Source of the DNA: Salinibacter sp. 10B
Lineage (GTDB): Bacteria; Bacteroidota; Rhodothermia; Rhodothermales; Salinibacteraceae
NCBI RefSeq assembly: GCF_002954405.1
Contig: NZ_MQWC01000004.1
Location: 470,065-534,064 of the forward strand
Direction: 5' to 3'
Length of the DNA stretch: 64,000 bases
Position 1 is the stretch's first letter; each line of letters opens with the position of its first letter. The notes under the pieces are model-generated. The model had not been told where the DNA came from and did not search any database. It saw only the letters and a program-made list of their open reading frames with translations. This document shows positions 43,499 to 64,000 of the stretch, piece after piece. The position numbers and the translations under genes were made by a program.

Positions 43499-43586
43499 GC
43501 CCGAGTGGCGGAATTGGTAGACGCGCGTGATTCAGGGTCACGTGGCCGTTATGGCCGTGGAGGTTCGAGTCCTCTCTCGGGCACCA
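43499..43586 (+). tRNA. tRNA-Leu (CAG)
   Basis: The acceptor stem GCCCGAG/CTCGGGC is perfect, with discriminator A and encoded CCA (43584-43586). The anticodon stem CGTGA/TCACG encloses TTCAGGG, so the anticodon is CAG. The long variable arm (TGGCCGTTATGGCCG) is the class II form expected for Leu. The T-arm is GGTTCGAGTCC. It lies at the left edge of the integrase-bearing region, so its 3' end is the likely attachment site. Confidence 0.95.
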
Positions 43587-45122: not shown

Positions 45123-45171
45123 CGATCGGCTTTGGTGCGTTTCCAAAGTTTAATTTGTGGCAGTTGCATAA

Positions 45172-46287
45172 TTAAGCGACATCGCCGAATGTCTCATCCA
45201 TCGCCCGCTCCATTACCTCGGGCTGTAGGTGACTGTACTTCTCAGTGACCTGCGTGCTTGAATGACCGAGGATCTCCGAAATCACGCGGAGCGGCACGCC
45301 TTGCATCGAGAGCCACGAGCCAGTCGTGTGCCGGCATGAGTGGAACGACAACTCCTCCCGGTCTTCGAGTTTCGCCTTTCGTACGTAGAACTTGAACCGC
45401 TTGCTTACCCGATCAGGCTTCGGCGGATCGTCGTTCGCATCCAGAAACACCGGATCACCCGGAATCGGCTGCCGCTCGTCATACACCGATTGGAGAACAT
45501 TGAGTGCATCCCCTCTGAGAGGCACGACCCGTTCCCGCCCATTCTTCGCGGTGAAGTCTTCCCGGTGCCGAACGATAAGCTGACCTTCTTCGAGATCAAT
45601 ATCAGCCCACCGAAGATTCAGCAGCTCTCCACGACGCAGACCAGTGCCTACTGCAACGCGGATCATGTTTTTCAGCCACGTGTCGTGGGGCGTTGGGCCG
45701 GGCTCTCCCTCCAGCATTTCCCGATGGGCATCTATCGCACGAAGAAGCGTTTTGATGTCCTCTGGATCGAGAAATGCTTGCTTCGTCTCCTCCTTCCGAG
45801 GCTGCTTCAGATCCTGAATGGGACTGTCGTCTGCAAGGCCTCGCTCGACGGCCCACGAGAAGAAGGCTCGCACGTGCCGATAGCGGCTTCGCTGCGTGGC
45901 GTTGGATACTTCAGCACTGTGGATGTACGGGCGTAGGTGACCCGAGGTGACATGGCGGACCATCAATCCCGGTGGGAGTTCATCGACAAGGGCTCCCAGT
46001 TTGTAGCGGTAAGAATCGATCGAGCTCTGCTGGAGACCCTCCTTTTCCTTGATATCGAGGAAGAGGTCAACGGCATCCGACACCGTCTCATTATCTACGA
46101 GCCAACCGCCGGCCCAAGGATCGAATGTACCGTCGGCCCATCCCTCTTCCATTCGGCGGAGCTTCTTTTTCGCAACGCTTTTCCGCGTAGTGTAGAGGGC
46201 CAGTTCTTTTCGCTTAGGGCGCTGTTTCTTGTCGTAGAATCGGGCGTAGTACTTGTCGCGTTTCTTGCGAAGTGAAGCTGATCCCAT
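45172..46287 (-). CDS. Tyrosine recombinase / phage-type integrase
   Basis: 371 residues. The N-terminal AP2-like arm-binding segment (YYARFYDKKQRPKRKELALY) and the SAM-like core-binding domain (about 68-165) precede the catalytic domain. Catalytic residues are visible: Arg in GTGLRRGEL (about R218), Lys about 248, His and Arg in HSCRHT (H316, R319), His in EILGHSS (H342) and Tyr351 in EKYSHL. It probably integrates and excises this element at the tRNA-Leu 3' end. The excisionase-like gene lies immediately upstream on the same strand. Confidence 0.95.
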   Translation of the reverse strand: MGSASLRKKRDKYYARFYDKKQRPKRKELALYTTRKSVAKKKLRRMEEGWADGTFDPWAGGWLVDNETVSDAVDLFLDIKEKEGLQQSSIDSYRYKLGALVDELPPGLMVRHVTSGHLRPYIHSAEVSNATQRSRYRHVRAFFSWAVERGLADDSPIQDLKQPRKEETKQAFLDPEDIKTLLRAIDAHREMLEGEPGPTPHDTWLKNMIRVAVGTGLRRGELLNLRWADIDLEEGQLIVRHREDFTAKNGRERVVPLRGDALNVLQSVYDERQPIPGDPVFLDANDDPPKPDRVSKRFKFYVRKAKLEDREELSFHSCRHTTGSWLSMQGVPLRVISEILGHSSTQVTEKYSHLQPEVMERAMDETFGDVA

Positions 46288-46677: not shown

Positions 46678-47619
46678 ATGAACGACTTCGATGAGTGGAA
46701 TGAGTGGCTTGGTAAACGGGGCGACGGACCGGTACCGACCATCATGGGCAGTCGCTACTTCTCAGACCCGTCTCGGTCGCCGGAGCAGTGGCGTCGCGAC
46801 ACTATGGAGTTTGTGAAAGAGGTGGAGGCTGAAGCCGAACAGATCTTCGAAGACGACGGCATCAGGGGGTTAAGAGAAGAACGTGACCTGATCGAGGAGC
46901 ACGTCCAGTCCAAGTTAGCTGAACGCAACCAAGTGAGTACTACATCGACCGTTTATCACCTCATGAGAACAAGCCTCGGCCGTTATGACGAAACCGATTT
47001 AGTTGCCGAGGATGTGCCATCAGGACCAAGTGCAGCTACGGTCACAATCGAAGATGGAGAATATTGGGGCCCCTTCGTTCTACGACCTACTGGTACGGCA
47101 TCGAGAATAATCTTGGAGTTGTCCTTACCCGAATTGAAAATGCACAACCTCCCTACTGATCAACAGGCCTATCTTGATCTCGGAGTAGAGCTCGCGGAAG
47201 ATGCAACCTGGAAGGATGCGGAACGAGCAGTTCGGGAGAAAATCGACCAGTGGAAAGAGGTTTGGAAGAAGAAGGACAACCGCCTCGCTTACTACCAAGC
47301 ACGTCTCGGGGTATACGAAAATCTACTGGAGCGACGGGCTATGGGGAAATCCATGCCTTGGGAAACGAGTGACGAAGACACCGAAGACGCTGAGCTCCGT
47401 CGGAAACTTTCGGATGACAGTGCTCGACTCGAATGGATTGGCGAATATCTGAATCCCAAGCGCAACAGTGAAGGCTGGACATGGGAGGACTGCTACCAAC
47501 ACTACCGGGACCTGTGTGACGACCTGGATGTGGAATGCAGCTACTCTTCCGCCGATTCGATGGCCCGCTCCTATCGGCAGTACCACAAACGGAATGGCAT
47601 TGACCAAGAAACGGAATAG
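46678..47619 (+). CDS. Hypothetical protein, 313 aa
   Basis: Not recognised. It is acidic, with no signal peptide or membrane segment. It has a helical, charged N-terminal third (SPEQWRRDTMEFVKEVEAEA), a possible beta-rich centre (TVTIEDGEYWGPFVLRPTGT) and a C-terminal third with Trp/Tyr-rich helical sequence (EGWTWEDCYQHYRDLCDDL). This last part resembles a small winged-helix-like or DNA-binding module, but I am not sure. It is divergent from the excisionase/integrase genes and lies before the structured region. An element-specific replication or regulatory role is possible. Confidence 0.7.
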   Translation: MNDFDEWNEWLGKRGDGPVPTIMGSRYFSDPSRSPEQWRRDTMEFVKEVEAEAEQIFEDDGIRGLREERDLIEEHVQSKLAERNQVSTTSTVYHLMRTSLGRYDETDLVAEDVPSGPSAATVTIEDGEYWGPFVLRPTGTASRIILELSLPELKMHNLPTDQQAYLDLGVELAEDATWKDAERAVREKIDQWKEVWKKKDNRLAYYQARLGVYENLLERRAMGKSMPWETSDEDTEDAELRRKLSDDSARLEWIGEYLNPKRNSEGWTWEDCYQHYRDLCDDLDVECSYSSADSMARSYRQYHKRNGIDQETE

Positions 47620-50608: not shown

Positions 50609-53600
50609 TCACAGTTTTGCACGCAGGCTGTCCAGGTCTCCCGAATCGCTGATCACGGTTACGCGATAGTTCAGCCGCTTGAGGCGCATTCGCTTCTGCC
50701 GATCGGCCGCCTCGATGTAGTCTTTGTAGTGAGGCGACCCGTCCACGAAGACCGGAATCTTCGGCTCGTAGTAGAAGTCGGCCTCCGCAATGGGCTCGTC
50801 CCCGTCGTAGATTGTCTTCTGTGCGGCGTCCGGGAGTCGAAGATCTCGGCTGCTGATCTCGCGCAGAACCTGCCGCTCGAAGTCGGACTGGCACTGCTCC
50901 AGGAGAGCCACCAACCGGTCCGGCGATCCTGACTGCCGACCTTCGATCTCCAAGTCGCCGAGCTCCTGAAGGAATGGGAGGACGAGCGTGCGGTCGAGGA
51001 CATCGTGGTCCCGCTGGTTGTAGAACGTGCAGAGGCATTCGTAGCAGGCCTTCTCGCAACCCTCTTCCCCTTCGTGCAGGACCTCACGAGCGCTCTGGAG
51101 CACCGCCCGCAGTCGAGGCGCCTCGGTGAGCGATTGTACGGCCCCGATTCCTCCTTCCGCCGTTTCGTAAATCACGATCCGCCGACGATCCGGGTCCTCC
51201 GGAATTTCGTTGATGAAGCCGCTGAGCTCACTCTCGTCGAGCTCCATCGTCACAGAGATGGCCTGCTCCAGCGTGTACCGAAGCGTCTTGTAGAAGCCTT
51301 CGACATCGTCGACGCCCTCGGGAAGGGGGCAGTCGATCGTGATGACATCGTTCTGCGTCTCCGTGAAGAGGTGGATGCCCCGTAGAAGCTCATCGGCTCG
51401 CGCATTCTGTGGACACTTTCCGTCCTCGTCGTCCCCGCCGACGTGGTTGTCGAGGGCGTTCTCGCTTACGAGCCACCGATTGCAGGCCCGGCAGTAGCCA
51501 AACCCCATCGCCTCGTCGTCCTCTTCGGCCTGCCGCGGGCCACGATTCACGTTGATGACTTGTCCGTTGTGCTCGTACGTCAGCGTGAACGCATCTTCCT
51601 CACCGTCGCTTACGGCATACGATTCGGCGGCCCGGCTGAGCTGGTAATGGATCTCCATCTCGTAGCCCTTCCGCATCCGCTCCTCCTCGTCGGCCGTGAT
51701 GGACGCCCGGGGCTGCGCCACCATGTCGGGCATCGGCAGGGCCTTCTCGTTGGCGTGGGTCCCCTTCAGGGACGTCTCGCAGTATTGGCACGCGGCTCGT
51801 TTCACGCTGTCCTCCCCGAGATAAGCGGTGTTGCACTCTGGGCAGACGAGAAGCTTCTCGAATGCGAGAGCATCATCGCCTCTCGTTTGCGGCCGGCCGT
51901 ACACGACCTCGTATCGATTCCCGCTGTAGTAGATGAAGTTGCCGGGTGCGTACTCGCGAAGGGCAAGAACGGGGTCGCGGCTGAGCTTGTCGTCCTTGTC
52001 GTAGAACGTCGTCGAGACCGAATCACGGGGGAACGCGTAGTTCGGAAGAAAGCCCTGACTGCCCAGGTACCGGTAGGTGTAAAACTCTCCTTCTCCGCTG
52101 CGCATGGAGTCGAGTCGATCCCCAATGACGCCGTATCGCATGCGCTGGGAATAGTCTCCTCCCTCCCGCTCGATGATCCGGTTGATCTCCCGAAGCTCCT
52201 GAACGAGGTCGCTGTACTCTTCCCGCCAGCTCTCAAACGTCCGATCCAGTGCAAGGGGGAATTGCTGAATCGTATCCCGGATAAACGACTCCGTCAGCCA
52301 GTCGAACCGCTCCATCTCTCGACTGAACGCGGTCTGGACAGCTTCCTCGATCTCCCCGCGGTACGTGGACACGGCCTCCTCAAATTCCCGCTGTAGGTCC
52401 TCGAACATCGGATACCCCTCCGTGTCGATGTCCAGAATCTGGGCGGGCCTCGGGGGGAGCTTCACTTCGGCCTTATGGGCCAGCGCCTCCAGCACGAGGG
52501 AGTGGATGTGCGTCTTGATGAGTCGCTCGTTGTCAAGCAGGAAACGCGGCGGGCTAATCTCTCCGGCGATAATCTTCTCCGGATTGCGATAGAAGTACTG
52601 GTCGTGGGGACCGCGGTAGCTGCCTGCCCCGCAGAATACAGTAATGAGCGACGGTTGCCCTTTCCGACCGGCCCGGCCCGCACGCTGTGCGTAGTTCGAG
52701 GGACTGGGCGGTACATTGCGCATGTAGACGGTCGAGAGGTCCCCGATGTCGATCCCCAGCTCCATCGTCGGCGTGCAGACGATTACGTTCAGATCGTCAT
52801 CCGGATCGCGGAAGTTCTCCTCGGTCTGGCGCCGCTCCTGCCCCGGCACCTGTCCGCTGTGCTCGGCGGCCTGTACCCGAACGACATCCTCCAGGTCTCG
52901 CTTGTACTCCCGGCGGAAATAGTTCTCCGAGAGGTCGACGCCGGTCTCAATCTGATCGCAGCTTTTCTCGGTGCAGACCTCCAGGGAGCGAAAGTGGTGG
53001 ACCGTTCCGCACTCTGGACAGACTTGATGGGTCGATTCTCCGGTGACGGAAAGCTGGAGGAGATCCGCCGGAAGCATGTAGAGGTCGCCGGCATACTGGA
53101 TGTGCTCCCGTTCCAGAAATCGCACGTCCCCGCTGGCAAGCGTGTCGACGACGGCCGGGATGATCTCCTCTGACTGGCCGTAGTCGACGTTCAGAGCACG
53201 CCTCGTCCAGGCCACCACTGTCGTGGAGGGATGCACAAAACGTCGGACATCGGCCCGATATGCGTCCGTGTTGGCCTCGTCGCTGAACCCTGTCGGATTC
53301 AACCAGTCGATGTCCTCGATAAAGACCTCCTCGTTCAATTCAGCGAGGACTTCTCGCTTGAATCGCTGGAAGCGCAGAAGATCGGAATGGCGAATCGCGA
53401 GCCGCTTCCGCATGATGTCGAGAAAGCCCCGGAGGTAATCGTACCGGATGTCTTCGCTCACCTCCTGGAGGAGGGGTACGTCCCGCCAGATGTCGGAGGC
53501 TGCAGCCAATTGATTGAGGCCGTCGTACGTGACCTCCAGGAGTCCCGTGTCTTCGAGGTTCTGGTGGATGCGTCGGCTCGTTCGCTCCAGGTCCTGAAGG

Positions 53601-55813
53601 AGGGCAAACTCCAAGTACTGCTGATACTTTTCTTCTCCCCCTCGGCTTGACCGAAAACGTCCTGTTTCCTGCTGATATGGCGGGAGTGCGTTTGCCTCCT
53701 CCATCGCGTCGAAAATCTTGAGGCCCATGTCTCCGAGTCTCTGCGGCCGCCGGGCGTCTTGGAGTGCTCGGTAGACGGCCCGCCGGAAATGGAGTCTACG
53801 TTGCAGGTTGTTGAAGTGGGCGGCCTGCAACGCCGTGTCCTGCCGATTGTCCGAGAAGGCAATCACCTTCCGCTCGTCCTTCGGCGCGGAGGTGAGTTTG
53901 TTAGACACCAGGACGTCTGTCGCCGTCGAGCGCCCGACCGTGCCAAACGTAAACAGCTTATTGAACTCGCGTGGACGACGGGTGTGGACGATGCTGCATT
54001 CCGAGCAAAGCAGGAATGGCACCTGAATGACTGCCACGTCGATTTGGGGATGCTCGCATCCGGCGCCGAGCTGATTGCATTTCGGGCAGTAGGTGGTGTT
54101 TTCCGGAACGGCGTCGCTGTACTTGCTCTTGACGTTTCCGGCCTTCGTGAGCCAGTTATCCGGAATAGGGGTGGCCTGAAAGTCATGGTGCTCCGGGTAG
54201 ATGTAGGCCGGGGCGCCCTCGCCTTCCTCGCTTCCGAGATCCCGAGGGAGGACCGTGCCGTCTTCCAGCACGGAGACGCCGTAGTACTCCTGCCCACACG
54301 CCCGGCAAAAGTTCAGTGGGAGCGCAATCCGTTCGCGACCGTGCTGCTCCTTGCAGGTCGGGCAGACCCGCTCGCCGCGATCGTTCAGATGTGGTCCTTC
54401 TCGCGTGAGACAGGTCGTGATGCCGCGGCCCTGCGAGAAGAACGCGTGCAGCTTGGGGATGAGCCGGGAGTCCAGCTCGTCGGTCCCGTTCCGCCGGACC
54501 ATTGGGGCACTCCCAACCAGGAGCGCCGCCGTGAGCTCGCGCAGTGCGTCCTGCCGGCTGGCCCCCGGCCGATAGGCCTCCTGGTACTCCTCCACAATAT
54601 CAGGAAGGCTTCGGGTCCCCTCTCCAAGCTTCTCCTCCAAAAAGTAGAGCGTGGCCTGTCGGCTGAGCGCCTCCCCAAGCGCCTCTCCCTTCTTCTCGTC
54701 AGGCCCCAACTCGCGGCCTAAGAGCGCCTCGGCAATGGTGGTCACCTGCCCCTCGTCTCCGTCAAACCCCTCAATCATCTCGTCGGTGACCTCGATGCTC
54801 GGGGCCAGGTCTCCATCGCCTTGCCCGTAGGTCGGGAGGTGGGTCTCCCCGATCACGTGGTCTCGGTCGAACGTCTCGCCGAAGAGCTTCGTCGCAAAGT
54901 CCGAGATGAGCTTCTTCGGGTCCTCCTCTTCCCCGCTCTGCACCGTAGCGCTCGTGGCAATGCAGCGGAGCTCGCCAGTCGTGCCAGTATGCTGCTTGAG
55001 GCGGCGAATTAGGCAGGCCACGTCCGAGCCGCGGTTGCCGGTGTACGTGTGGACCTCGTCGAGAACGAGATACTGGAGAATCCCCTCGTCTTCGGAAGGG
55101 AAGAGAACCCGGTCCTCGAACCGGGTGAGGAGGAGCTCCAGCATGACGTAGTTCGTCATGAGGATGTCCGGCGGCGACTCCTTGATCTGCTGCCGGCTGA
55201 TGACCTCGCTGTCGAAGGGCTGCTCGCGGCCGGTCACTTCTCGGAAGGCCTGTAGGGCCTCCTCCTCGCGTTCGAAGGTGTCGCCTGTGTAGCGGGCCAG
55301 TTTGAGGCCAGAGCCCTGCAGACGGCGGGCAAAGTCGTCATACTGGGAGTTGGCCAGGGCATTCATCGGGTACACGATGACCGCCTTGATGCCCGTCGTC
55401 CCTTGCTCGCGGGCCCGGAGGCACTCGCTCACGATTGGGATGCCGAAGGCGAAGGACTTGCCTGACCCAGTGCCGGTGGCAACAATCGTGTTGTTGCCGG
55501 TCTGGATCGAGCGAATGGCCTCCGATTGGTGCTTGTACGGCCGGATCGGCTCGGCCTGCCGATCGCCGGCTTCGGTTGTGAAGCACTTCGGCGTGTCCGG
55601 GTGGATATGTCCCTCCTCCACGAGATCGCTGAGCTCAGCACCGCGCTCGAAGCGGCGGTCGAGCTGAACGAACGGGTCCCTCCACAGAAGCGTCCCCTCG
55701 TCGATCCGCTCGCCGACCCATTCCTCGATCTGGGGATTTCGGAATTGCTGGAAGGTGTGGACATATGTCCGATAGGCGTCCTGAACGTCGGAGAGGACGT
55801 GGAAGGGATTCAT
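50609..55813 (-). CDS. Giant DEVH helicase with zinc-binding clusters, DUF1998-like region and C-terminal Vsr/DUF559-like nuclease domain
   Basis: 1734 residues. Helicase core: Walker A ATGTGSGKS (112-120), DEVH (252-255), SAT (288-290) and motif VI in YAQRAGRAGRKGQ. At least seven Cys pairs are spread along it (CPTC, CRAC, CPKC, CSEC, CPEC, CQYC, CRAC), indicating zinc ribbons. A DUF1998/MZB-like Cys cluster (CEKACYECLC) lies near the end. The last ~115 residues (SDFERQVLREISSRD, EADFYYEPKIPVFVDGSPH, DRQKRMRLKRLNYRVTVI) have the E...D...(V)DG...R layout of Vsr/DUF559-type PD-(D/E)xK nucleases. Similar large DUF1998 helicases occur in Druantia (DruE), DISARM and MrfA relatives; I cannot choose among them. 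Probably a DNA-acting defense protein. Confidence 0.85.
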   Translation of the reverse strand: MNPFHVLSDVQDAYRTYVHTFQQFRNPQIEEWVGERIDEGTLLWRDPFVQLDRRFERGAELSDLVEEGHIHPDTPKCFTTEAGDRQAEPIRPYKHQSEAIRSIQTGNNTIVATGTGSGKSFAFGIPIVSECLRAREQGTTGIKAVIVYPMNALANSQYDDFARRLQGSGLKLARYTGDTFEREEEALQAFREVTGREQPFDSEVISRQQIKESPPDILMTNYVMLELLLTRFEDRVLFPSEDEGILQYLVLDEVHTYTGNRGSDVACLIRRLKQHTGTTGELRCIATSATVQSGEEEDPKKLISDFATKLFGETFDRDHVIGETHLPTYGQGDGDLAPSIEVTDEMIEGFDGDEGQVTTIAEALLGRELGPDEKKGEALGEALSRQATLYFLEEKLGEGTRSLPDIVEEYQEAYRPGASRQDALRELTAALLVGSAPMVRRNGTDELDSRLIPKLHAFFSQGRGITTCLTREGPHLNDRGERVCPTCKEQHGRERIALPLNFCRACGQEYYGVSVLEDGTVLPRDLGSEEGEGAPAYIYPEHHDFQATPIPDNWLTKAGNVKSKYSDAVPENTTYCPKCNQLGAGCEHPQIDVAVIQVPFLLCSECSIVHTRRPREFNKLFTFGTVGRSTATDVLVSNKLTSAPKDERKVIAFSDNRQDTALQAAHFNNLQRRLHFRRAVYRALQDARRPQRLGDMGLKIFDAMEEANALPPYQQETGRFRSSRGGEEKYQQYLEFALLQDLERTSRRIHQNLEDTGLLEVTYDGLNQLAAASDIWRDVPLLQEVSEDIRYDYLRGFLDIMRKRLAIRHSDLLRFQRFKREVLAELNEEVFIEDIDWLNPTGFSDEANTDAYRADVRRFVHPSTTVVAWTRRALNVDYGQSEEIIPAVVDTLASGDVRFLEREHIQYAGDLYMLPADLLQLSVTGESTHQVCPECGTVHHFRSLEVCTEKSCDQIETGVDLSENYFRREYKRDLEDVVRVQAAEHSGQVPGQERRQTEENFRDPDDDLNVIVCTPTMELGIDIGDLSTVYMRNVPPSPSNYAQRAGRAGRKGQPSLITVFCGAGSYRGPHDQYFYRNPEKIIAGEISPPRFLLDNERLIKTHIHSLVLEALAHKAEVKLPPRPAQILDIDTEGYPMFEDLQREFEEAVSTYRGEIEEAVQTAFSREMERFDWLTESFIRDTIQQFPLALDRTFESWREEYSDLVQELREINRIIEREGGDYSQRMRYGVIGDRLDSMRSGEGEFYTYRYLGSQGFLPNYAFPRDSVSTTFYDKDDKLSRDPVLALREYAPGNFIYYSGNRYEVVYGRPQTRGDDALAFEKLLVCPECNTAYLGEDSVKRAACQYCETSLKGTHANEKALPMPDMVAQPRASITADEEERMRKGYEMEIHYQLSRAAESYAVSDGEEDAFTLTYEHNGQVINVNRGPRQAEEDDEAMGFGYCRACNRWLVSENALDNHVGGDDEDGKCPQNARADELLRGIHLFTETQNDVITIDCPLPEGVDDVEGFYKTLRYTLEQAISVTMELDESELSGFINEIPEDPDRRRIVIYETAEGGIGAVQSLTEAPRLRAVLQSAREVLHEGEEGCEKACYECLCTFYNQRDHDVLDRTLVLPFLQELGDLEIEGRQSGSPDRLVALLEQCQSDFERQVLREISSRDLRLPDAAQKTIYDGDEPIAEADFYYEPKIPVFVDGSPHYKDYIEAADRQKRMRLKRLNYRVTVISDSGDLDSLRAKL

Positions 55814-55919: not shown

Positions 55920-56945
55920 ATGCTCGCAGTTCCAGGCTTTTCTTCTCCATGGCCGAATGCAGTTGAGGCCAAGGTGGAAGAATTTGATTGTCTCTTTGGC
56001 GCTGCATTCGACTACTACTTCCGCCAAAGCACTTCCGGAAATCCTCCGGAGGAGGTGCCCCTATTCCGCTCCATGCAGGACGCCTTCGAGCGAATGAGCA
56101 GGCACTTTTATGTGGAGGAATACCACGGCCAAGTGTCGCAGGTCGAATTTGCCCCGCCTACTCATGACGAGTACGATTGGGCTCGATCGTCTCCTCAATG
56201 TGAGCTTGCAGATCTTCTGATTGTAGCTTTTCGGACGGGGAAAAATCCTTCGATTCGACTAACTTTGCTCCAGGCAAAATCAGAACGAAATCGCAGAACT
56301 CCACACCTCGATGATCGACCTTGGTTCAAGGCGAATATGGAACAGTGGGATTTGCTTTCCAGACGGCCACCAATCGAGGGGGCTTTCAGTACATTCAATC
56401 CACCAAGGTCTCTGCTTGCCGACGCCCTCCTTCCTTCCGTCGGAACCTTTGGTTTTTTCTACAGGAACCACGGACAAGATGACTACCACTTATACTATGG
56501 AAGGGCTGAGAGCTTCAACCCCACCTACAATTACTCAACCCGATACGGCGGACGTCTGAAGGTCAGCAATACACAGCTTGCCGCTCAAAAACATGGGTTC
56601 ACGGAGGCGTGCCTGGCACCAGACACTCCGGAGTTTGGTGCATTAATGAACGCCCAGCTAATTGGCACGCCCATTCACGCTGAAGCAGATCCGTATAGCA
56701 GTACTTCTTGGATCGTTCGGCGATGGTTGCTCAGTCTCGTCCGTTCAGCGGTGGAGGAGCGAAGACGTGAAATTGGGGACGAAGGTATTGAGGTTGGAGA
56801 ATTCTTTTTGGAGACCTTCGGGGATGGGGAAGACATTATTGAGGATGAAATTCGTCGGTTCGCGCCTGGTACTAAATCATTGGTGTTGATCAAAACCAAC
56901 GGGAAATTCCGAACCCTACCTCCGGAGATTTTAGCACGCCTGTAG
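55920..56945 (+). CDS. Unknown protein with PD-(D/E)xK-like motif
   Basis: Not recognised as a named family. Residues 95-120 (E95-L-A-D98-L-L-I-V ... L-L-Q118-A-K120) follow the E/D...D...(E/Q)xK layout of restriction-like nucleases, with the acidic residue and a Gln in the usual Glu position. An aromatic-rich region (SVGTFGFFYRNHGQDDYHLYYGR) and a helical C-terminus follow. It is the only plus-strand gene in this part; it diverges from the giant helicase gene (starts 107 bases apart) and converges on the SF2 ATPase gene with a 38-base gap. It may be the nuclease part of the neighbouring module. The motif reading is inference. Confidence 0.6.
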   Translation: MLAVPGFSSPWPNAVEAKVEEFDCLFGAAFDYYFRQSTSGNPPEEVPLFRSMQDAFERMSRHFYVEEYHGQVSQVEFAPPTHDEYDWARSSPQCELADLLIVAFRTGKNPSIRLTLLQAKSERNRRTPHLDDRPWFKANMEQWDLLSRRPPIEGAFSTFNPPRSLLADALLPSVGTFGFFYRNHGQDDYHLYYGRAESFNPTYNYSTRYGGRLKVSNTQLAAQKHGFTEACLAPDTPEFGALMNAQLIGTPIHAEADPYSSTSWIVRRWLLSLVRSAVEERRREIGDEGIEVGEFFLETFGDGEDIIEDEIRRFAPGTKSLVLIKTNGKFRTLPPEILARL

Positions 56946-56983
56946 ACGTACTTGCCCAATTCTCGAGTTCCATTCAGGTGTCA

Positions 56984-58387
56984 TCACTCCTCACCGAAGC
57001 CGTACTGCCCCAAGAGGGTGTTTTCGCCATCCACTGTCTCTGCCCTGTCGCGGAGAACATACGTTGAAAGTGTATCGCCCTCATCTGGAAGTACTGCCGC
57101 CTTGCGCTGCTGCATTGACCCGGTCTGCATAGGAAGGTCAAAGTGGACTACAGCATTGGCCTCTATTAGCCCGAGATCTGGGAGAACGTCATCGGAGACA
57201 AGAAGCACACCGCCGTGCTCCTGGAAGTCACCCACGAGTTCTTCGCGCTCATCTATGCTAAGTTTATCGTGGAGGCGGTAGACGGAAACGTTCGTCTCTT
57301 CCAAACTCACCTTGAGATACTTCAGCGTATGTATATCGAATGTCATGCACGTGACGTGTGATGGCGCGCTGTCATCCAGAAAGTGCTTCAAGCACTCCAA
57401 CTTTGCATCCGTCTCAACTTCAGCCATCAGATCAAGAAGGCCGTTAATCCATTTCCTGGCCTCTTCGACCTGCATCCATAGTGAATCGAGGTTTTCGATT
57501 CCCTCCCAGAACTCGGAATCTTCTGTGCGTCCCCCAAAAGGGTTCGTCGAGTGAGCAAATTCACTTGCATCGACGAGTCGCTTCAGAGCGTAGAGCCACT
57601 GATCAACGGAATATAAACTTGAAATCTGAGCTTCAAACGTTCGTCGGATCAAACCTGCTGACTGCCTCGCGTCCGGAGATAGGTATTCACCAATTCGATC
57701 TAACTCGGTATGGAAAGCTTGCTCCCTCTCCGTCCGCTCGTACTCAAGAACAGAGCGCTCGAAATCAACACCCTGTGCCTCCACAACAGCATGGTCCTGC
57801 TTGAAGACGGTTAGAGGTTTTGAGAACGGTTGATGGACCTCTCGACTGAGAGCAAGGAACCGATCACACTTGTCTGTTATCAGAAGACGTTCCAGAGCAA
57901 AGCGAAGGGAGGGCTCATCGTTCTGGAGTTTCTCCCTCACGACCAGATCCAAATCATCTACCACGCCGAGATCCCAAGAAACGTCTTGGAGGGACTCCTC
58001 CGCCGAGGGTCGCTGCAGGAGTGACGAATCGAACACGTATGTTGTCCCTCCACCCCAGATATCAGCACTGTCAGCAGATTTCGACTTTTGACGACGGTAC
58101 CAAGAGGGAGAGGCTAAGTGTACCTTCTCCTCGAAATCCCAGCGGCGGAGGCGTTCAACAAAGTGTCCGGCCTTAGCTGATGAAGGAGCAGCGCAGAACA
58201 TCCGTGCATCTGAATTGCGCTGCCGCATCCGTGCGAGGATAATAAAGGCAAGAAAGGTCTTACCTGCGCCCGCGGGAGCAGCAACTAACCACCGGCCAGA
58301 GTCACTCTCCGAGACATTTTCGGCGACCCTATGTTGCCAAGATGTGGCTTCGTACTCGAACGTTTGCCCCGTTTCTCTTTCAGTCAT
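56984..58387 (-). CDS. Small SF2-type ATPase/helicase
   Basis: 467 residues from ATG 58387. The N-terminal RecA-like domain has Walker A (APAGAGKT, residues 37-44) and a Walker B-like VVDDLD (142-147), so motif II is DDLD rather than DEAD/DEAH. The C-terminal half has a second RecA-like fold (VTCMTFDIHTLKYLKVSL, YRLHDKLSIDEREELVGDF, GVLLVSDDVLPDLGL, SMQQRKAAVLPDEG) that resembles helicase motifs IV-VI in weak form; the usual motif VI QxxGRxGR is replaced by MQQRKA. It may translocate on nucleic acid or act only as a switch. Its start overlaps the CBS-HEPN stop (ATGA), so the two are coupled. Confidence 0.7.
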   Translation of the reverse strand: MTERETGQTFEYEATSWQHRVAENVSESDSGRWLVAAPAGAGKTFLAFIILARMRQRNSDARMFCAAPSSAKAGHFVERLRRWDFEEKVHLASPSWYRRQKSKSADSADIWGGGTTYVFDSSLLQRPSAEESLQDVSWDLGVVDDLDLVVREKLQNDEPSLRFALERLLITDKCDRFLALSREVHQPFSKPLTVFKQDHAVVEAQGVDFERSVLEYERTEREQAFHTELDRIGEYLSPDARQSAGLIRRTFEAQISSLYSVDQWLYALKRLVDASEFAHSTNPFGGRTEDSEFWEGIENLDSLWMQVEEARKWINGLLDLMAEVETDAKLECLKHFLDDSAPSHVTCMTFDIHTLKYLKVSLEETNVSVYRLHDKLSIDEREELVGDFQEHGGVLLVSDDVLPDLGLIEANAVVHFDLPMQTGSMQQRKAAVLPDEGDTLSTYVLRDRAETVDGENTLLGQYGFGEE

Positions 58388-59217
58388 CCTTCGTCCTCTT
58401 GCGTCTGTACATTGGCATTGGCTTGGACCGATTCTCGCCGTTCCCGAATCCAAGTCCGGGTTTCGCGAAGCGTGTCGATCTCGTCTTCGTCGAGAGAGCG
58501 TTTCAAGTGAAAAACAGTGTTTCGTAGTTCCCGAATGTCATCAAGGCGCGTCTCTACGATCCCTCGCTGGAGATCATTTCCTGAAGCCGAAAACGCGTCG
58601 CCAAAGTGGGTATTCCAATTATCGCCGTGTCGAACTATCCCGACAAGATCTCCCATCGACATTTCGGTGAGTTCTACGGGCACATCTTCCTCATCCTGAT
58701 ACGGACTTTCGTGAAGGGCTCGCACCGCACACTCTTCGAGTTCATCTTCATCCACACACGAGTCGATAACTTCGCGAGCGTGTCGCTCGATTTCTGCTAT
58801 CAGAACAAACGGCTGAGCGACCGAATGCAGGTGATGGAGTACGTCCATCGCCGTAAGGATTCCAGTGAGATTGGTTCGAGACTCAACGAGAACGGCATCA
58901 TGCCGGTCCAAATCCTCGAACACCTCTTCGGGATCTCGCTCGACCGAGCGAAATGGAGGTTGGTTCATTAACGCCCCAACCGTAAGCTCGTCCTCAGAAG
59001 GGTTTTGCTCCAGGAGGTCAAGGATACCTTCAGTGAAGGAGCGATACGAAAAGATTCCCATTACGCGCTCATCGTCCACCACCGGCAATTGGGAGTAATT
59101 TTCCTCCCTCATGATCTCAACGGCATCAGCAACAGGTGTGTCTGGAGAAACAGTCTGAACCTGCTGATCATCGGGCAGTACGTCGCTGATCGACTGATAA
59201 AATTGACGATCCTCCAT
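58384..59217 (-). CDS. CBS-pair protein fused to a HEPN-like domain
   Basis: 277 residues. Two CBS motifs: residues about 14-65 (TPVADAVEIMREENYSQLPVVDDERVMG) and about 78-132 (FEDLDRHDAVLVESRTNLTGILTAMD). CBS pairs bind adenosyl nucleotides. Residues about 137-255 are helical and resemble the Swt1-type HEPN group; they include R232-N-T-V-F-H237, an Rx4H motif with the typical Asn after Arg, the active site of HEPN RNases. A sensor plus ribonuclease design is suggested. The stop overlaps the start of the SF2 ATPase gene. The gene begins 151 bases downstream of the DarG stop, on the same strand. Confidence 0.72.
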   Translation of the reverse strand: MEDRQFYQSISDVLPDDQQVQTVSPDTPVADAVEIMREENYSQLPVVDDERVMGIFSYRSFTEGILDLLEQNPSEDELTVGALMNQPPFRSVERDPEEVFEDLDRHDAVLVESRTNLTGILTAMDVLHHLHSVAQPFVLIAEIERHAREVIDSCVDEDELEECAVRALHESPYQDEEDVPVELTEMSMGDLVGIVRHGDNWNTHFGDAFSASGNDLQRGIVETRLDDIRELRNTVFHLKRSLDEDEIDTLRETRTWIRERRESVQANANVQTQEDEG

Positions 59218-59368
59218 GATCGCTGAGACCCTTCAATTCAATTGTCGATTGGAGACCTGCACAATCTGAGCTGAATAAACGATATCTTCCGAGCAAAAAT
59301 TGGGTTGACAGAACACAGCCGGACCGTTCAACCGGTATACATTCATCCCGGGGTTGAAAGCCGTTTTC

Positions 59369-60514
59369 TCAACCGCTCACTTTGGGCTGGGGCTCCTCAT
59401 CATCCTCGGTCCCAAACAACTCATCGTCCATGAGCTCTGGACTGAACTCCGCATCAATCCATCCGAGCATGTTCAGATTCCGAATGGTTGAGGCAATTTC
59501 CTCTTCGTCGAACGACCGGTCCTGCTTCCACGACTGCACGGCCTCCAAAACATCCATCTCCGAAGGGTGATCGTCCTCCACAAGACGAGTGGCCGCGAAA
59601 TGTACGGTAGCGGCCACCTCCGACTCTTGCGTGTCCATCCGCAGAAAGAGGTCCGTCACCCGATTCAATTCGTCGGACCAATCTCCAAGCTGATCTCGGA
59701 AAAGCTCAAGGGCGTCATTGAACGCCGGTCCCGGCTTCTTTCGCAGCATCTGTCCCTGCCTCCGTTCAGTGAGCACCTCGTTGTTCTGGAGACGGCCAAA
59801 TACCTTTTTTAGATCGTCCGCGTACGGGCCGTACGATCCTTTTCGAAACTCCAGACCCGTCGGAATACCGGCCTCTGTTGCAAAGTATGCGAGCTTCTGA
59901 AAGCGCGTGCGACCGACCGGATGACGGTAGCGCTGTCGTTCGATCTTGGCGACCATCGCCGCGAGAGCGAACGTGCCAGCGTCGATTTCCTCTTTCGATC
60001 GAATCGACTGAATGTCATCAGAAGTGATTTCCTGTCGCTCCAGAAATGCATGGTCCAGCTGTTCATCCGGTGTCTCGAACGGAGCGTATAGCTCAACCGG
60101 AATGTTCATCTCGCTCAAGTATCGATAGAGGGTAGGCCCTACCACACGCCAGTCGAGCTGTCCATTTCCGCAGCCGAGTGGAGGCACGGCAAGCGACTCG
60201 ATCCCCCATTCCTTGTATTTGTCGAGGACGTGCTCCATGCCGCGACGAATGTCGGACAGGTTGGAGACGGCCCGCCAGTGCCCTTTCGTCGGAAAATTGA
60301 GAACCCAGGGCTCCTCATCTCGCCGGTAGAGATAGGGACGCCCTCGCTGTACGTCTCCGTTCTCGCAGCGCTCGACGTAATCTTCGTACATTTCGGGAAA
60401 CCGCTTCTTGAACTGCTCGGCAATGCCTTTCCCCATCACGCCAACACAGTTCACCGTATTGGTGAGCGTCTGCGCGTCGGACTCGAAAATGTTGCCAATG
60501 AGAATGTTAACCAT
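59369..60514 (-). CDS. darG: DarG antitoxin: macro-domain DNA ADP-ribosylglycohydrolase
   Basis: 381 residues. N-terminal macro domain (1-155): GNIFESDAQTLTNTVNCVGV and GKGIAEQFKKRFPEM bind ADP-ribose, and VPPLGCGNGQLDW is the usual glycine-rich loop. DarG removes ADP-ribose from DNA bases modified by DarT and also binds DarT. The C-terminal part (about 190-380, HPVGRTRFQKLAYFATEAGI, GSYGPYADDLKKVF) is the winged-helix domain found in DarG proteins. The start overlaps the darT stop by 8 bases, the standard toxin-antitoxin coupling. Confidence 0.92.
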   Translation of the reverse strand: MVNILIGNIFESDAQTLTNTVNCVGVMGKGIAEQFKKRFPEMYEDYVERCENGDVQRGRPYLYRRDEEPWVLNFPTKGHWRAVSNLSDIRRGMEHVLDKYKEWGIESLAVPPLGCGNGQLDWRVVGPTLYRYLSEMNIPVELYAPFETPDEQLDHAFLERQEITSDDIQSIRSKEEIDAGTFALAAMVAKIERQRYRHPVGRTRFQKLAYFATEAGIPTGLEFRKGSYGPYADDLKKVFGRLQNNEVLTERRQGQMLRKKPGPAFNDALELFRDQLGDWSDELNRVTDLFLRMDTQESEVAATVHFAATRLVEDDHPSEMDVLEAVQSWKQDRSFDEEEIASTIRNLNMLGWIDAEFSPELMDDELFGTEDDEEPQPKVSG

Positions 60515-61109
60515 GGCCCTGCTGGAAAAAGAGATCGGAATGAACTTTCACCTCCAGGTCCTCGACAATCCCCTTCACTCTCTCTTTGCTTTCTTCACAT
60601 GATACGAATATACGTCTCATATGTGTCGGAGCCACATGATCAGGAATGAGGACTTCAGCACACTTGACCGACCTATGTTCCATATAAGCGATTCGACTCG
60701 GGTGTGTCCAGTCCCGTGCGTAGACCCACTGATCATCCAAGATCTCAAGATCGTCAGCGCCCCGACCAAATCGGACGTATTTACTTGACGCATTGCGGTC
60801 TGCGATTACGACTCCCTCCTGCTTCAATATCCTTTTGTGTACGCTCAATACACACAGATCTTCGTGCTGCCCCCTTCGCTTGTACATCATCGGATTCCGG
60901 GCGTGGAAGTAGAGATTCACGTACTCATGAAGGGGCCGCCCCTCCGGTACTCGTTTTTCGGCACGGCGCTCCTGAACCTCCGAATCCGCAACTGATTCGT
61001 GGTCGATCTCCTCCACACGAGCATGAGACAAAATCCCGTGCTCGAGGATTGACGGAAGATTTTCGATCGGCGTGATGTAATGAAGTCCGGGTAGGTCGTC
61101 GTACGTCAC
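60507..61109 (-). CDS. darT: DarT toxin: DNA thymidine ADP-ribosyltransferase (DUF4433)
   Basis: 200 residues starting at GTG 61109 (MTYDDLPGLHYITPIENLPS). Matches the DarT family: HYITPIENLPSILEHGILSH near the N-terminus (NAD and substrate region), NPMMYKRRGQHEDLCVLSV, ADRNASSKYVRF (family motif), and the catalytic Glu (E152) in CAEVLIPDHV. DarT attaches ADP-ribose to thymidine in single-stranded DNA, blocking replication. It is paired with DarG downstream. It begins 17 bases after the methylase stop on the same strand, so methylase, DarT and DarG may form one transcript. Confidence 0.93.
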   Translation of the reverse strand: MTYDDLPGLHYITPIENLPSILEHGILSHARVEEIDHESVADSEVQERRAEKRVPEGRPLHEYVNLYFHARNPMMYKRRGQHEDLCVLSVHKRILKQEGVVIADRNASSKYVRFGRGADDLEILDDQWVYARDWTHPSRIAYMEHRSVKCAEVLIPDHVAPTHMRRIFVSCEESKERVKGIVEDLEVKVHSDLFFQQGHG

Positions 61110-61126: not shown

Positions 61127-64000
61127 TTAAGTAGACGTGTGCAGCGAGTGCTCATCAGTCGGAGTGGCTTCCTCTCTGAGCATCTCTGAACCATCCAACT
61201 CGTCGTACGCCTCCAGCACCAGCCGCTTCGTCCGGTACTCCCCGTAGTCTTCTTTGTCCTCCCGCTCCACGATCGGGAAGGTGTCAAGGATGTAGGCCAG
61301 TTCCTCGCGTTCCAATCCATAGAGGTGGCCGTATAGGCCGTCGAGGTCGGCGCGGAGCTGGGCGCGGCGCTCCTCGTCCCACATGAACGGTGGATGTGGA
61401 AACTTCTCATCCGCATGATCGGAGTGCTCGACCCACTCGGGCGGGGTGGCACCGTGATGGCCGCCGTCGGTAGCGCGGACGTTCGCCTGCCACTGCGCCC
61501 TGATGACGGATTGGAGGGCGTCGTCGGATTCACTCCACACGTCATCCACGAATGCGGCCAGGTCCCACGCTGTGTATGTCAACTCAAGAACCCGTGGGAC
61601 GATGTACTCCAATAACTCCGACGTATAAGCTCCAGGAGGGTGAACAGGGAGCTGCTTTACGATATAGAAGTTGAGTGAAACTCCTCCAACTTTTTGTCGG
61701 ACTGAGAAGTCGAAAGGAAAGGAGTTGAGTTCGCCAAAAAGTGCGGCCGCTTTTTTGGTATCGACTGTTTCCCACGAGAGAATCGGAGCCTTATTGCTTA
61801 CTCCAGACCACGAGATCAGGCTAAAGATTCCAGTCCTTTCATCAGTGGTTCGGGCAATGTCCCTAAAAACCAAGAACTGCGACTGACGAGTTTCCTGTTC
61901 TTCCTCCACTTCAGTCTCGTCCACCCAGAACCAGGGCTCAGGCGTATATCTCGGATTCGAATGTTGCTCAGCGGAAGCTTTGGAAAGCTGAACATTAGTC
62001 CGATTCTCCGACTCAGCAAAGCTTCCATATCGATGATCGAACTGGTGAAACATTTTCGCCTCGTATAATGGCAGGTACGTATCTTCCTCATTCACAAATC
62101 GATTGCCCCGGAGCTCAAATCCCTCCGTCTCCATGTCCTCCCGTGTATAGAAGAGATCGCTATCACTCGACATGTTGAAATGTCCTTGCTTGAACGACAC
62201 GCCCCACGGATTTTCATTCTCCTCCTCATTGATGAGTACGGGCGCGGCCCGGTAAAGCTTTTTCGTAAGCTTTGCGTCTTGCTTCGATCGGAAGGTCGGA
62301 CAGGTACCAGTATTCGGGTTGATCGTGTACAACTCCTTGCGCGTGAGCGTGAAGTGCCGGTCCTCCTCTGATAGCTGCTCCGGCTGCGTCAGGAAGAAGG
62401 CGAAGTCGATCTCCCGCTCTGGCGCACCCAGTCCCGTCAGCGTGAGAAGACAGAACTTCATGCGACTGTCAACACCGTAGAAGAGCTGCTCTCGATTAGC
62501 GAAGTCGAAGAGACTCACAAGCTCCCGATTATCTACAATCGCGTTGAAGTAGTCCTGCGTGTAGTAGTCCGTTGCGATCCCGCTCGGCACAATGACGCCC
62601 GACCGTCCCTCTGGATCGACAACCTGTCGTACCAGCCCAGCGAAAATCTGGTACACGTTGATCCGGCCCACAGCTGTGAGATCATACCTTCCACTCTTCT
62701 TCAGGTAATCTCCCAAGGCGTTGCTGAAATGCTGGGCCTGCTGGTACTCGTCGTAGAGAGGATCACCTTTTTCCTTCAGGTCCTCAATCATTCCCTTTCG
62801 CTTAGCAGCCGTATCCGCACCAGCGATTGCCGGTGCCTTCATCGCAAAGAACTCCTTCTCTTCCAACTGAATTTGCTCCCACGGCGGATTGCCGACCACC
62901 ACATCGAACCCACCGTCGCCGTTCTCGCCGAAGACCTCTGGAAACTCCAGGTGCCAATGAAAGAAGTTGTATTCCTCGGCCATTTCCTCAACGCGAGCCC
63001 GCTGCTCGTCAGGGATCGCGTTAGGCCCCTGCCGCTGCACGCGAAACAGCTCCCCGTAGGTCGGCGCCCAGTCGGTGCCCTCTGGCATCGGCCAGAAAAA
63101 GGCGGCGGTGTACATGTCTGCCTCCAACTTCGCCTGCCGCCGCTCCTCATCATTTAAGTACTCGGCGTAGATCTGTCGGGCCTGTTTCGGCTTCTCCTGC
63201 GCCACCTGTTCGAAATCTCCGGCCTCGTAAGCTACGCGCGGCTCGGTCGTCACCGCACTCTCGAAGGCGCCCATCTGCACGCCCTGCCCTTCTTTGCTTT
63301 CTCTCCGTTCCGTCTTGGTCTTCTCCCGAAAGGCCTTCGAGGTCTCTCCATCATCACCGGATCGACTCTTGCTTTTCGTGGGAAAGGCCTCATACGGAAT
63401 CCCATCGTCCAAAAGCTCGGGGGTGGCACCAATCAGTGAGTTTCCCTGCTTGATGTGGTGATCGAGGAAGCTGAGCGGCCGGTCCTGAACGCTCGCATTT
63501 ATCCAGAGACTCACCTTGCAGAGCTCCACGGCCATCGGGTTGAGGTCAACCGCATAGATACAGCGGGCCAGCACCGCTCGCTTCGCCTGGCGCACGGCCC
63601 GCTCGGTCGGGTACTCGTCGCCGCTCCGCAGCCGAGCCACCTCCGCCCCCATCACGTCATTGGCCTTCACGAGGAAGTGTCCGCTCCCGGCCGCTGGATC
63701 TACCACGTCCATCGACAATATCGCCTCTTCGCCCGCCTCACGCTCCCCATCGGACAGGTTGGCATACTCCTCCAGAAGACCCGTCGTCACCTCCCCGAGG
63801 TCGTCCTCATCGACCACAGGCAAGCCGCTATCCTGGAGCCGATCTCGCATCACAGGGAGCAGGGCACTTTTCACGAGCTCGTTCACCAGCGAGTCCGGCG
63901 TGTAGTAGGAGCCGCTCTGCTTGCGCTCCAGTCCTCGCGGGTCAAGAATGAACTCGTTCGCCGACACCTCTCGGTCCTCGATCGTCTCCGGGTCCTCCGT
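61127..64000 (-). CDS. Eco57I-type adenine-specific DNA methylase, N-terminus off the window
   Basis: The reading frame is open to the right edge (codons before the GTG at 63967 read T-E-D-P-E-T-I-E-D-R-E), so the start lies outside and the product is longer than 957 residues. Counting from that GTG: methylase motif I DPAAGSGHFLVKA (90-102), an ERKQSGSYYTPDSLV segment before it, and motif IV NPPW (360-363), followed by a long target-recognition-type region. Sequence around NPPW (FHWHLEFPEVF) is typical of Eco57I-like and DISARM/BREX-type methylases. It methylates N6 of adenine. It is followed after 17 bases by darT, with the CBS-HEPN and giant helicase genes further along the strand. Nuclease content of the missing N-terminus is unknown. 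Confidence 0.88.
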   Translation of the reverse strand, partial: TEDPETIEDREVSANEFILDPRGLERKQSGSYYTPDSLVNELVKSALLPVMRDRLQDSGLPVVDEDDLGEVTTGLLEEYANLSDGEREAGEEAILSMDVVDPAAGSGHFLVKANDVMGAEVARLRSGDEYPTERAVRQAKRAVLARCIYAVDLNPMAVELCKVSLWINASVQDRPLSFLDHHIKQGNSLIGATPELLDDGIPYEAFPTKSKSRSGDDGETSKAFREKTKTERRESKEGQGVQMGAFESAVTTEPRVAYEAGDFEQVAQEKPKQARQIYAEYLNDEERRQAKLEADMYTAAFFWPMPEGTDWAPTYGELFRVQRQGPNAIPDEQRARVEEMAEEYNFFHWHLEFPEVFGENGDGGFDVVVGNPPWEQIQLEEKEFFAMKAPAIAGADTAAKRKGMIEDLKEKGDPLYDEYQQAQHFSNALGDYLKKSGRYDLTAVGRINVYQIFAGLVRQVVDPEGRSGVIVPSGIATDYYTQDYFNAIVDNRELVSLFDFANREQLFYGVDSRMKFCLLTLTGLGAPEREIDFAFFLTQPEQLSEEDRHFTLTRKELYTINPNTGTCPTFRSKQDAKLTKKLYRAAPVLINEEENENPWGVSFKQGHFNMSSDSDLFYTREDMETEGFELRGNRFVNEEDTYLPLYEAKMFHQFDHRYGSFAESENRTNVQLSKASAEQHSNPRYTPEPWFWVDETEVEEEQETRQSQFLVFRDIARTTDERTGIFSLISWSGVSNKAPILSWETVDTKKAAALFGELNSFPFDFSVRQKVGGVSLNFYIVKQLPVHPPGAYTSELLEYIVPRVLELTYTAWDLAAFVDDVWSESDDALQSVIRAQWQANVRATDGGHHGATPPEWVEHSDHADEKFPHPPFMWDEERRAQLRADLDGLYGHLYGLEREELAYILDTFPIVEREDKEDYGEYRTKRLVLEAYDELDGSEMLREEATPTDEHSLHTST

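Follow-up and report, generated by a model that had tools for sequence, protein, structure and literature searches.

What do two overlapping genes accomplish inside a defence operon of Salinibacter sp. 10B, when one codes for a CBS pair joined to a HEPN-type domain and the other for a small helicase-like protein? The question arises in a stretch of 64,000 nucleotides (assembly GCF_002954405.1, contig NZ_MQWC01000004.1, positions 470,065 to 534,064), here called the window, in which positions are counted from its first letter. On the minus strand the CBS-HEPN gene (58384..59217, 277 aa) is followed by a gene which resembles those of superfamily 2 (SF2) helicases (56984..58387, 467 aa). The first product is distantly related to DS-11, a known anti-phage protein. 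The second is probably an ATP-binding pseudo-helicase which does not act as a motor. Both genes lie between the methyltransferase gene and the YprA-type helicase gene of an ARMADA Type I-like operon. Taken as a whole, the best explanation is a DS-11-like, nucleotide-gated RNase toxin with a regulatory pseudo-ATPase, carried as an accessory of this operon; we give it an even chance.

The initial annotation had treated the pair, together with a convergent open reading frame (ORF) of 341 aa, as a set without a named system. This is superseded. According to the available text of the two sources, CBS-HEPN fusions of the same architecture were noted in 2013 by Anantharaman et al. (PMC3710099), and DS-11 was validated in 2026 (PMC13092281). 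Two things are still new: a pseudo-ATPase coupled to such a protein, and the position of this pseudo-ATPase inside an ARMADA-like operon.

The CBS-HEPN Protein

DS-11 is a one-protein system of CBS and HEPN parts which was found by DefensePredictor. As the available text of the report has it, defence is abolished by changing Y157 of the CBS part or the catalytic residues of the HEPN part (PMC13092281). The window protein has the same order of parts, a CBS pair and then an RNx3H motif of HEPN type; unlike that of DS-11, its gene is coupled to a second one. Pfam PF00571 matches the CBS pair in two stretches (E 1.5e-17), and the best NCBIfam match is NF053863.1, 'DS11_antiphage' (E 4.2e-31, residues 6-256).

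Relatives were gathered from plasmids (10 loci from 10 of 11 records; H3, the second record of one strain, was omitted), genomes (58 loci) and viral contigs (7 loci). The window protein was aligned with the plasmid and genome rows, 69 rows in all. Arginine, asparagine and histidine of R232-N-T-V-F-H237 are each conserved in 68 of the 69; the sole exception, L070, is without the motif. On this conservation we rejected the possibility that R232-x4-H237 is a mere chance Rx4H, and the original reading of a CBS pair joined to an Rx4H HEPN-type motif is borne out. When columns are mapped to an E. coli DS-11-type protein of 365 aa, R330 and H335 align with R232 and H237, and the ligand-contact aromatic Y157 aligns with Y41, a column occupied by F, Y or W in 64 of 69 members. 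From its NCBI name and the tyrosine at 157 we infer that this E. coli protein is the experimentally tested DS-11. One of the ten records listed gives the E. coli member the name 'CBS domain-containing anti-phage protein', and 127 of 5426 E. coli genomes carry the gene. A further alignment, A3, was built from 39 of the 58 genome loci without any plasmid rows; its members, when scanned, all match the DS-11 model at E <= 1e-10 (40 of 40).

For the family tree 17 of the 69 rows were removed beforehand, being >90% identical. The window protein groups with seven haloarchaeal members (8-row set) at a support of 99 in the Shimodaira-Hasegawa-like approximate likelihood ratio test (SH-aLRT), a placement which is unsure because its branch is as long as 4.06. 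These proteins from Halobaculum, Haloarcula, Halorubrum, Natronococcus and others are nearest in the tree and short like the window protein; they differ in having no homologue of the SF2-like partner alongside, and identity is about 30%. Among 296 genomes of the phylum, eight contain a match to the DS-11 model at E <= 1e-10, none of them above the curated cut-off. Of these eight, only the window match extends as far as the HEPN end (model position 304); the remaining seven end at 189-205, i.e., with the CBS part. When the CBS-HEPN protein itself was used to search 100 relatives, 74 had a match, and among the matches listed all except the window's own gene cover the CBS part alone.

The AlphaFold2 model of the protein, built with 40 sequences, has a predicted local distance difference test score (pLDDT) of 90 and a predicted template modelling score of 0.80; its C-terminal half is helical. 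In structure searches the CBS half matches solved CBS proteins (best Z 17.3, root-mean-square deviation 1.9, 123 aligned), and in BFVD a CBS protein was the only match at E <= 0.001. Rows of HEPN fold are absent from the structure search, and nothing is claimed from this because CBS matches filled the lists. A profile of the C-terminal part found seven PDB chains at E <= 10, none with a HEPN name. The putative HEPN assignment rests on the RNx3H motif and on matches to HEPN_Swt1 (PF18731) in relatives, found in 13 of 40 at E <= 0.5 with a best E of 3.5e-4.

At 59218-59322, upstream of the annotated ATG, there is an extension of the match to the DS-11 model, which starts at model position 27 and crosses one TGA. 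It is possibly a vestige, though a weak one, of the longer N-terminus which other members of the family have.

The SF2-Like Partner

The stop of the CBS-HEPN gene and the start of the SF2-like gene share four nucleotides (58384-58387), so that genes, coordinates and ATGA-type junction are as first annotated. The likely start is the ATG at 58387; a TTG start listed at 58453 falls within the upstream gene. Directly ahead of this ATG, inside the end of the CBS-HEPN gene, is a purine-rich stretch (GAGGACGAAGG) which resembles a ribosome site. Overlaps of 1 or 4 nt are found in two of the 33 co-directional neighbour pairs in the gene list of the region, and this pair is one of the two. A promoter and terminator scan of the region yielded predictions no more numerous than in shuffles.

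The SF2-like protein has weak Pfam matches to Helicase_C (4.4e-6) and DEAD (8.1e-6), and PADLOC matches of BrxHI, Cas3 and DrmD type. Its motifs were aligned with those of 13 SNF2/RapA-type helicases, five of them ArmA-type. The RecA1/RecA2 layout and an intact Walker A (PAGAGKT) are shared with ArmA, DrmD, BrxHI and RapA. The differences begin with length, the protein having 467 aa only. Motif II is DDLD in place of DEAH and the catalytic Glu is absent; motif III is SREVH where helicases have TATPH; TDxxSEGxNLQ of motif V is lost; and motif VI is QRKAAVLPDE where helicases have QRxGRxxR, the arginines missing. Of the small SF2 ATPase first proposed, the DDLD and the broken motif VI are confirmed by this alignment. 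A working motor was rejected on the loss of motifs II, III, V and VI; to judge by its motifs, the protein is probably a pseudo-enzyme.

Scans with the SF2-like protein covered viral contigs, plasmids, genome contigs, 394 genomes of the phylum and first 10, then 242 genomes of a haloarchaeal class. No close relative emerged from these; they returned the protein itself and weak partial matches in generic helicases (23-31% identity, E 2e-4 to 4e-9, frames of 367-1140 aa). Homologues of the SF2-like gene and of the 341-aa ORF are likewise absent from the 75 other CBS-HEPN loci (phmmer at E 0.01 for 68 loci and E 1e-3 for 7), in stretches of up to about 5-7 kb per side, some of them shortened by contig ends. 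Absence from the single-sequence scans of the collections is not strong evidence, because such pattern scans are weak for lone sequences.

That no CBS-HEPN relative has an SF2-like neighbour, that viral, plasmid and genome searches gave no close relative of the SF2-like gene, and that several of its motifs are lost all favour independent cargo: a solo DS-11-like toxin, then an unrelated, decaying helicase fragment, the two having come to overlap. Against this stand a frame which is open across 467 aa with G+C contents of 0.63/0.40/0.55 at the three codon positions (GC1/2/3), the ribosome-site-like stretch within the end of the upstream gene, and the similar GC3 of both genes. We consider independent cargo unlikely, and yet the strongest of the alternatives. 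Next comes a toxin-antitoxin pair, which we hold to be doubtful. Here the SNF2/RapA-like partner would be an antitoxin restraining the HEPN RNase, and an infection which removes the partner or its ATP state would free the toxin. A toxin-first operon with ATGA coupling, a second toxin-antitoxin pair, DarTG, next door, and a partner which looks catalytically dead agree with this. However, E. coli DS-11 works as one gene according to the available text of its report (PMC13092281), and a homologue of the partner is missing from the 75 other family loci; CBS-HEPN toxins therefore do not generally need this partner.

Two members of the family adjoin ATP-dependent defence-type genes. The CBS-HEPN gene of L059 is located 24 nt after a type ISP methyltransferase gene, with an SNF2 helicase upstream; that of L086 is located 20 nt before a UvrD-type helicase with a weakly ParE-like N-terminus (E 0.0084). 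The two join in the tree with an SH-aLRT of 90, below the mark of 95. Their linkage fits a remark of 2013 on HEPN domains joined to helicases of restriction-modification (R-M) systems; in the available text it was proposed that HEPN toxins repeatedly linked to such helicases act once the R-M system is overcome (PMC3710099). In the window, by contrast, the helicase-like component is a protein of its own, seems to be dead and is linked through a gene overlap. Because other close neighbours in the family are housekeeping-like (L038, for instance, is preceded by an acetyl-CoA synthetase-type gene, and L049 is followed by a mechanosensitive-channel-type gene), a link to ATP-dependent defence genes is not general. 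As an aside, the arrangement in L086 (4117-8114) is reminiscent of the RelE-helicase fusion ArmD of ARMADA Type II.

A Possible Mode of Action

How might a DS-11-like toxin with a regulatory partner work? By analogy with DS-11, the CBS-HEPN protein would be an adenine-nucleotide-gated RNase toxin directed against phages. In the resting cell an adenine compound in the CBS pair would hold the HEPN dimer closed. Infection would alter the ligand; the dimer would then open, RNA would be cut and growth would stop. The co-translated SNF2/RapA-like protein is probably an ATP-binding, perhaps also nucleic-acid-binding, regulatory subunit of the toxin rather than a helicase. Like DarTG and the 341-aa ORF, the pair is one of several accessory modules between the methyltransferase gene (B) and the YprA-type gene (C) of the operon, possibly a second layer behind the DNA-targeting system. 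A more specific version can be put forward quite tentatively, and we would not bet on it: a dead SNF2-type ATPase was recruited as sensor or regulator of the DS-11-like RNase, both would bind adenine nucleotides, and the unit would guard the ARMADA operon from inside and fire when the ARMADA helicases are blocked.

A number of observations weigh against the toxin with a regulatory partner. Since the score to the DS-11 model, 108.2 bits, is far below the curated cut-off of 260, the window protein is filed as a distant relative and not as DS-11 itself. Its branch is the longest in the family tree, and its highest identity to any member is 30%. Compared with the E. coli protein it lacks about 90 aa (277 vs 365 aa). 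At position 108 it has Ala where 61 of 69 members have Tyr, which means that the second CBS site may be altered. The structural matches bear on the CBS half only (in VIA the rows span residues 1-142, and in Foldseek the list is taken up by CBS proteins), and among HEPN profiles none matches the window protein significantly, the best being PF18729 with the C-terminal part (E 0.078). As for the partner, neighbouring genes with a 4-nt overlap are no proof that their products form a complex; only one instance of the coupled pair was found; and the SF2-like gene could be decaying, no relative being at hand which would show motif loss under selection.

The 341-aa ORF

Does the convergent gene belong to the pair? 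The 341-aa ORF (55920..56945, plus strand) faces the SF2-like gene across a gap of 38 nt. It is an orphan. No family match was obtained in PADLOC, Pfam, NCBIfam or PHROGs; two matches to the PDB are both at chance level (E 9). No homologue was found on plasmids, in viral contigs or in phages, and 394 genomes of the phylum returned the ORF alone. Structure prediction reached a pLDDT of 32. The E...D...QxK nuclease-like pattern which had first drawn attention is present as D98...Q118-A-K120 and is the sole sign of a nuclease. The pattern, which was written down after the ORF had been seen, also occurs in 20 of 550 ORFs of 200-500 aa and in 24 of 2000 shuffles of the 341-aa protein. A PD-(D/E)xK reading, suggested by this one weak pattern, is unproven, and the nuclease fold is unsupported. 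An undescribed three-gene defence module of CBS-HEPN protein, working SF2 motor and PD-(D/E)xK nuclease, for which adjacency and the D98..Q118xK120 pattern speak, is highly improbable: conserved synteny was looked for in the 75 other loci and neither companion gene has a homologue there, the motor motifs are degenerate, and the third gene is on the opposite strand with a weak pattern as its only nuclease sign.

The ARMADA-Like Operon and its Island

The defence-type surroundings had been recognized correctly; they consist of DarTG and an ARMADA Type I-like operon. The ArmC-like YprA-type helicase (50609..55813, minus strand, 1734 aa) has DEAD, Helicase_C and MZB matches. Its last 163 residues, where ARMADA Type I would have a Vsr-type nuclease domain, have no Pfam match; a Vsr-like look was noticed by eye only. 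The ArmB-like (PglX/DrmMI-like) methyltransferase of 1400 aa, matched by PADLOC DrmMI (2.4e-78) and Pfam Eco57I, occupies 61127..64000 on the minus strand and extends to 65329 beyond the window (L018:1127-5329). The third core gene, also beyond the window (69039-71918), codes for a BrxHII/DrmD-like helicase. These genes are the ARMADA Type I set, i.e., BrxHII/RapA-like helicase (A), PglX-like methyltransferase (B) and YprA-like helicase (C), in the A-B-C order which the available text describes for many archaea and cyanobacteria (PMC12458937). In contrast to the operons described there, both gaps of the window operon hold accessory genes.

The best full-length matches of the core are on haloarchaeal plasmids. 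The YprA-type helicase is 47.9% identical over 99% to a Natrinema plasmid protein, and relatives at 46-48% identity are found on haloarchaeal plasmids, among them L103, in which the three core genes abut directly.

Between genes B and C lie the CBS-HEPN gene, the SF2-like gene, the 341-aa ORF and DarTG. The macro-domain antitoxin DarG (59369..60514, minus strand) is matched by PADLOC DarG (1.7e-92) and is above the cut-off of NCBIfam NF048014. The toxin DarT (60507..61109, minus strand; Pfam PF14487, 9.7e-47) is above the Pfam cut-off and below that of NCBIfam (126.7 vs 150). The literature already has a DarTG2 which lies within a type I R-M operon, flanked by hsdS and hsdR (PMC12255303, available text), and so the embedding of DarTG as such was known; the operon around it here is ARMADA-like and also contains a DS-11-like pair. 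GC3 is 0.73-0.785 in the core and 0.684 on average in ten host genes. In the cargo it is 0.518 for the 341-aa ORF, 0.529 for the CBS-HEPN gene, 0.553 for the SF2-like gene, 0.567 for DarT and 0.662 for DarG. These differences suggest a mosaic operon.

Two genes were observed in the other gap, between the ARMADA-like helicase and the methyltransferase. One is a 373-aa ORF (65375-66496; L018:5375-6496) with ESKFW..Q..Y, PD-(D/E)xK-like by eye and without a significant family match. The other (66454-68982; L018:6454-8982) codes for an SF1 helicase whose core is MkoA-like and whose end is a nuclease of MTES_1575 type, with a match below the Pfam cut-off.

All this is part of an island of about 29 kb between two 60-nt repeats with 2 mismatches. 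The left repeat, from about 43526, is the 3' part of a tRNA-Leu gene (anticodon cag; 43499..43586, plus strand); the right one is at about 72801, beyond the window. The island codes for a tyrosine integrase (45172..46287, minus strand; phrog_1 integrase, 2.8e-68), an excisionase-like protein and a DUF3987 protein. A PIN_4 domain protein (43734-45146) adjoins the attachment site and has the lowest GC3 among the island genes listed, 0.459; a gene of 313 aa (46678-47619) has no match in PADLOC, Pfam or PHROGs.

Cargo Between Methyltransferase and YprA Genes

Is the B-C gap peculiar to Salinibacter? We surveyed 16 records from the 75 hit rows listed (H13-H87) and five genome stretches, and kept 19 loci and the window. 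Two loci were excluded, L127 because its YprA gene comes first and L111 because its stretch has no methyltransferase; an A gene is lacking in L115; split core genes (L108, L126, L128, L132) were counted as one. The B-C gap exceeds 400 nt in 15 of 20 same-strand loci, the A-B gap in 4 of 19. Fisher's test gives p 0.0012, which is only a guide because the loci are chosen top matches, a non-random sample, and the Thermus and the cyanobacterial ones are related.

The contents were taken from annotations and from family scans of 43 gap ORFs, five of them the window's; some small ORFs were outside the scan. The cargo varies. Besides DarTG and CBS-HEPN in the window it comprises DUF2887/Rpn, Uma2, PIN and other toxin-antitoxin genes, TumE, Fic, type III CRISPR, a UvrD helicase and radical SAM. 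In L115 (4587-17389) the gap of the ARMADA-like operon measures 12.8 kb, and matches to type III CRISPR (Cas10/Cmr) and Fic were placed there by ORF size and number. In a Nostoc operon (L110:17523-19627) AAA ATPase and radical SAM genes are annotated in the gap. The words 'accessory', 'HEPN', 'DarT' and 'CBS' are absent from the main text of PMC12458937 as far as it is available, and among the matches listed in literature searches no publication title deals with cargo in this gap, which does not prove that there is none.

The known CBS-HEPN defence family is extended by this locus to a divergent two-gene form. The pair offers a natural test of how CBS-HEPN toxins are held and released, a matter of some weight as the ligand of DS-11 is, in the available text, still unknown (PMC13092281). 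The methyltransferase-YprA gap of ARMADA Type I-like operons emerges as a recurrent site for accessory toxin and nuclease genes, and a place in which to seek further defence modules.

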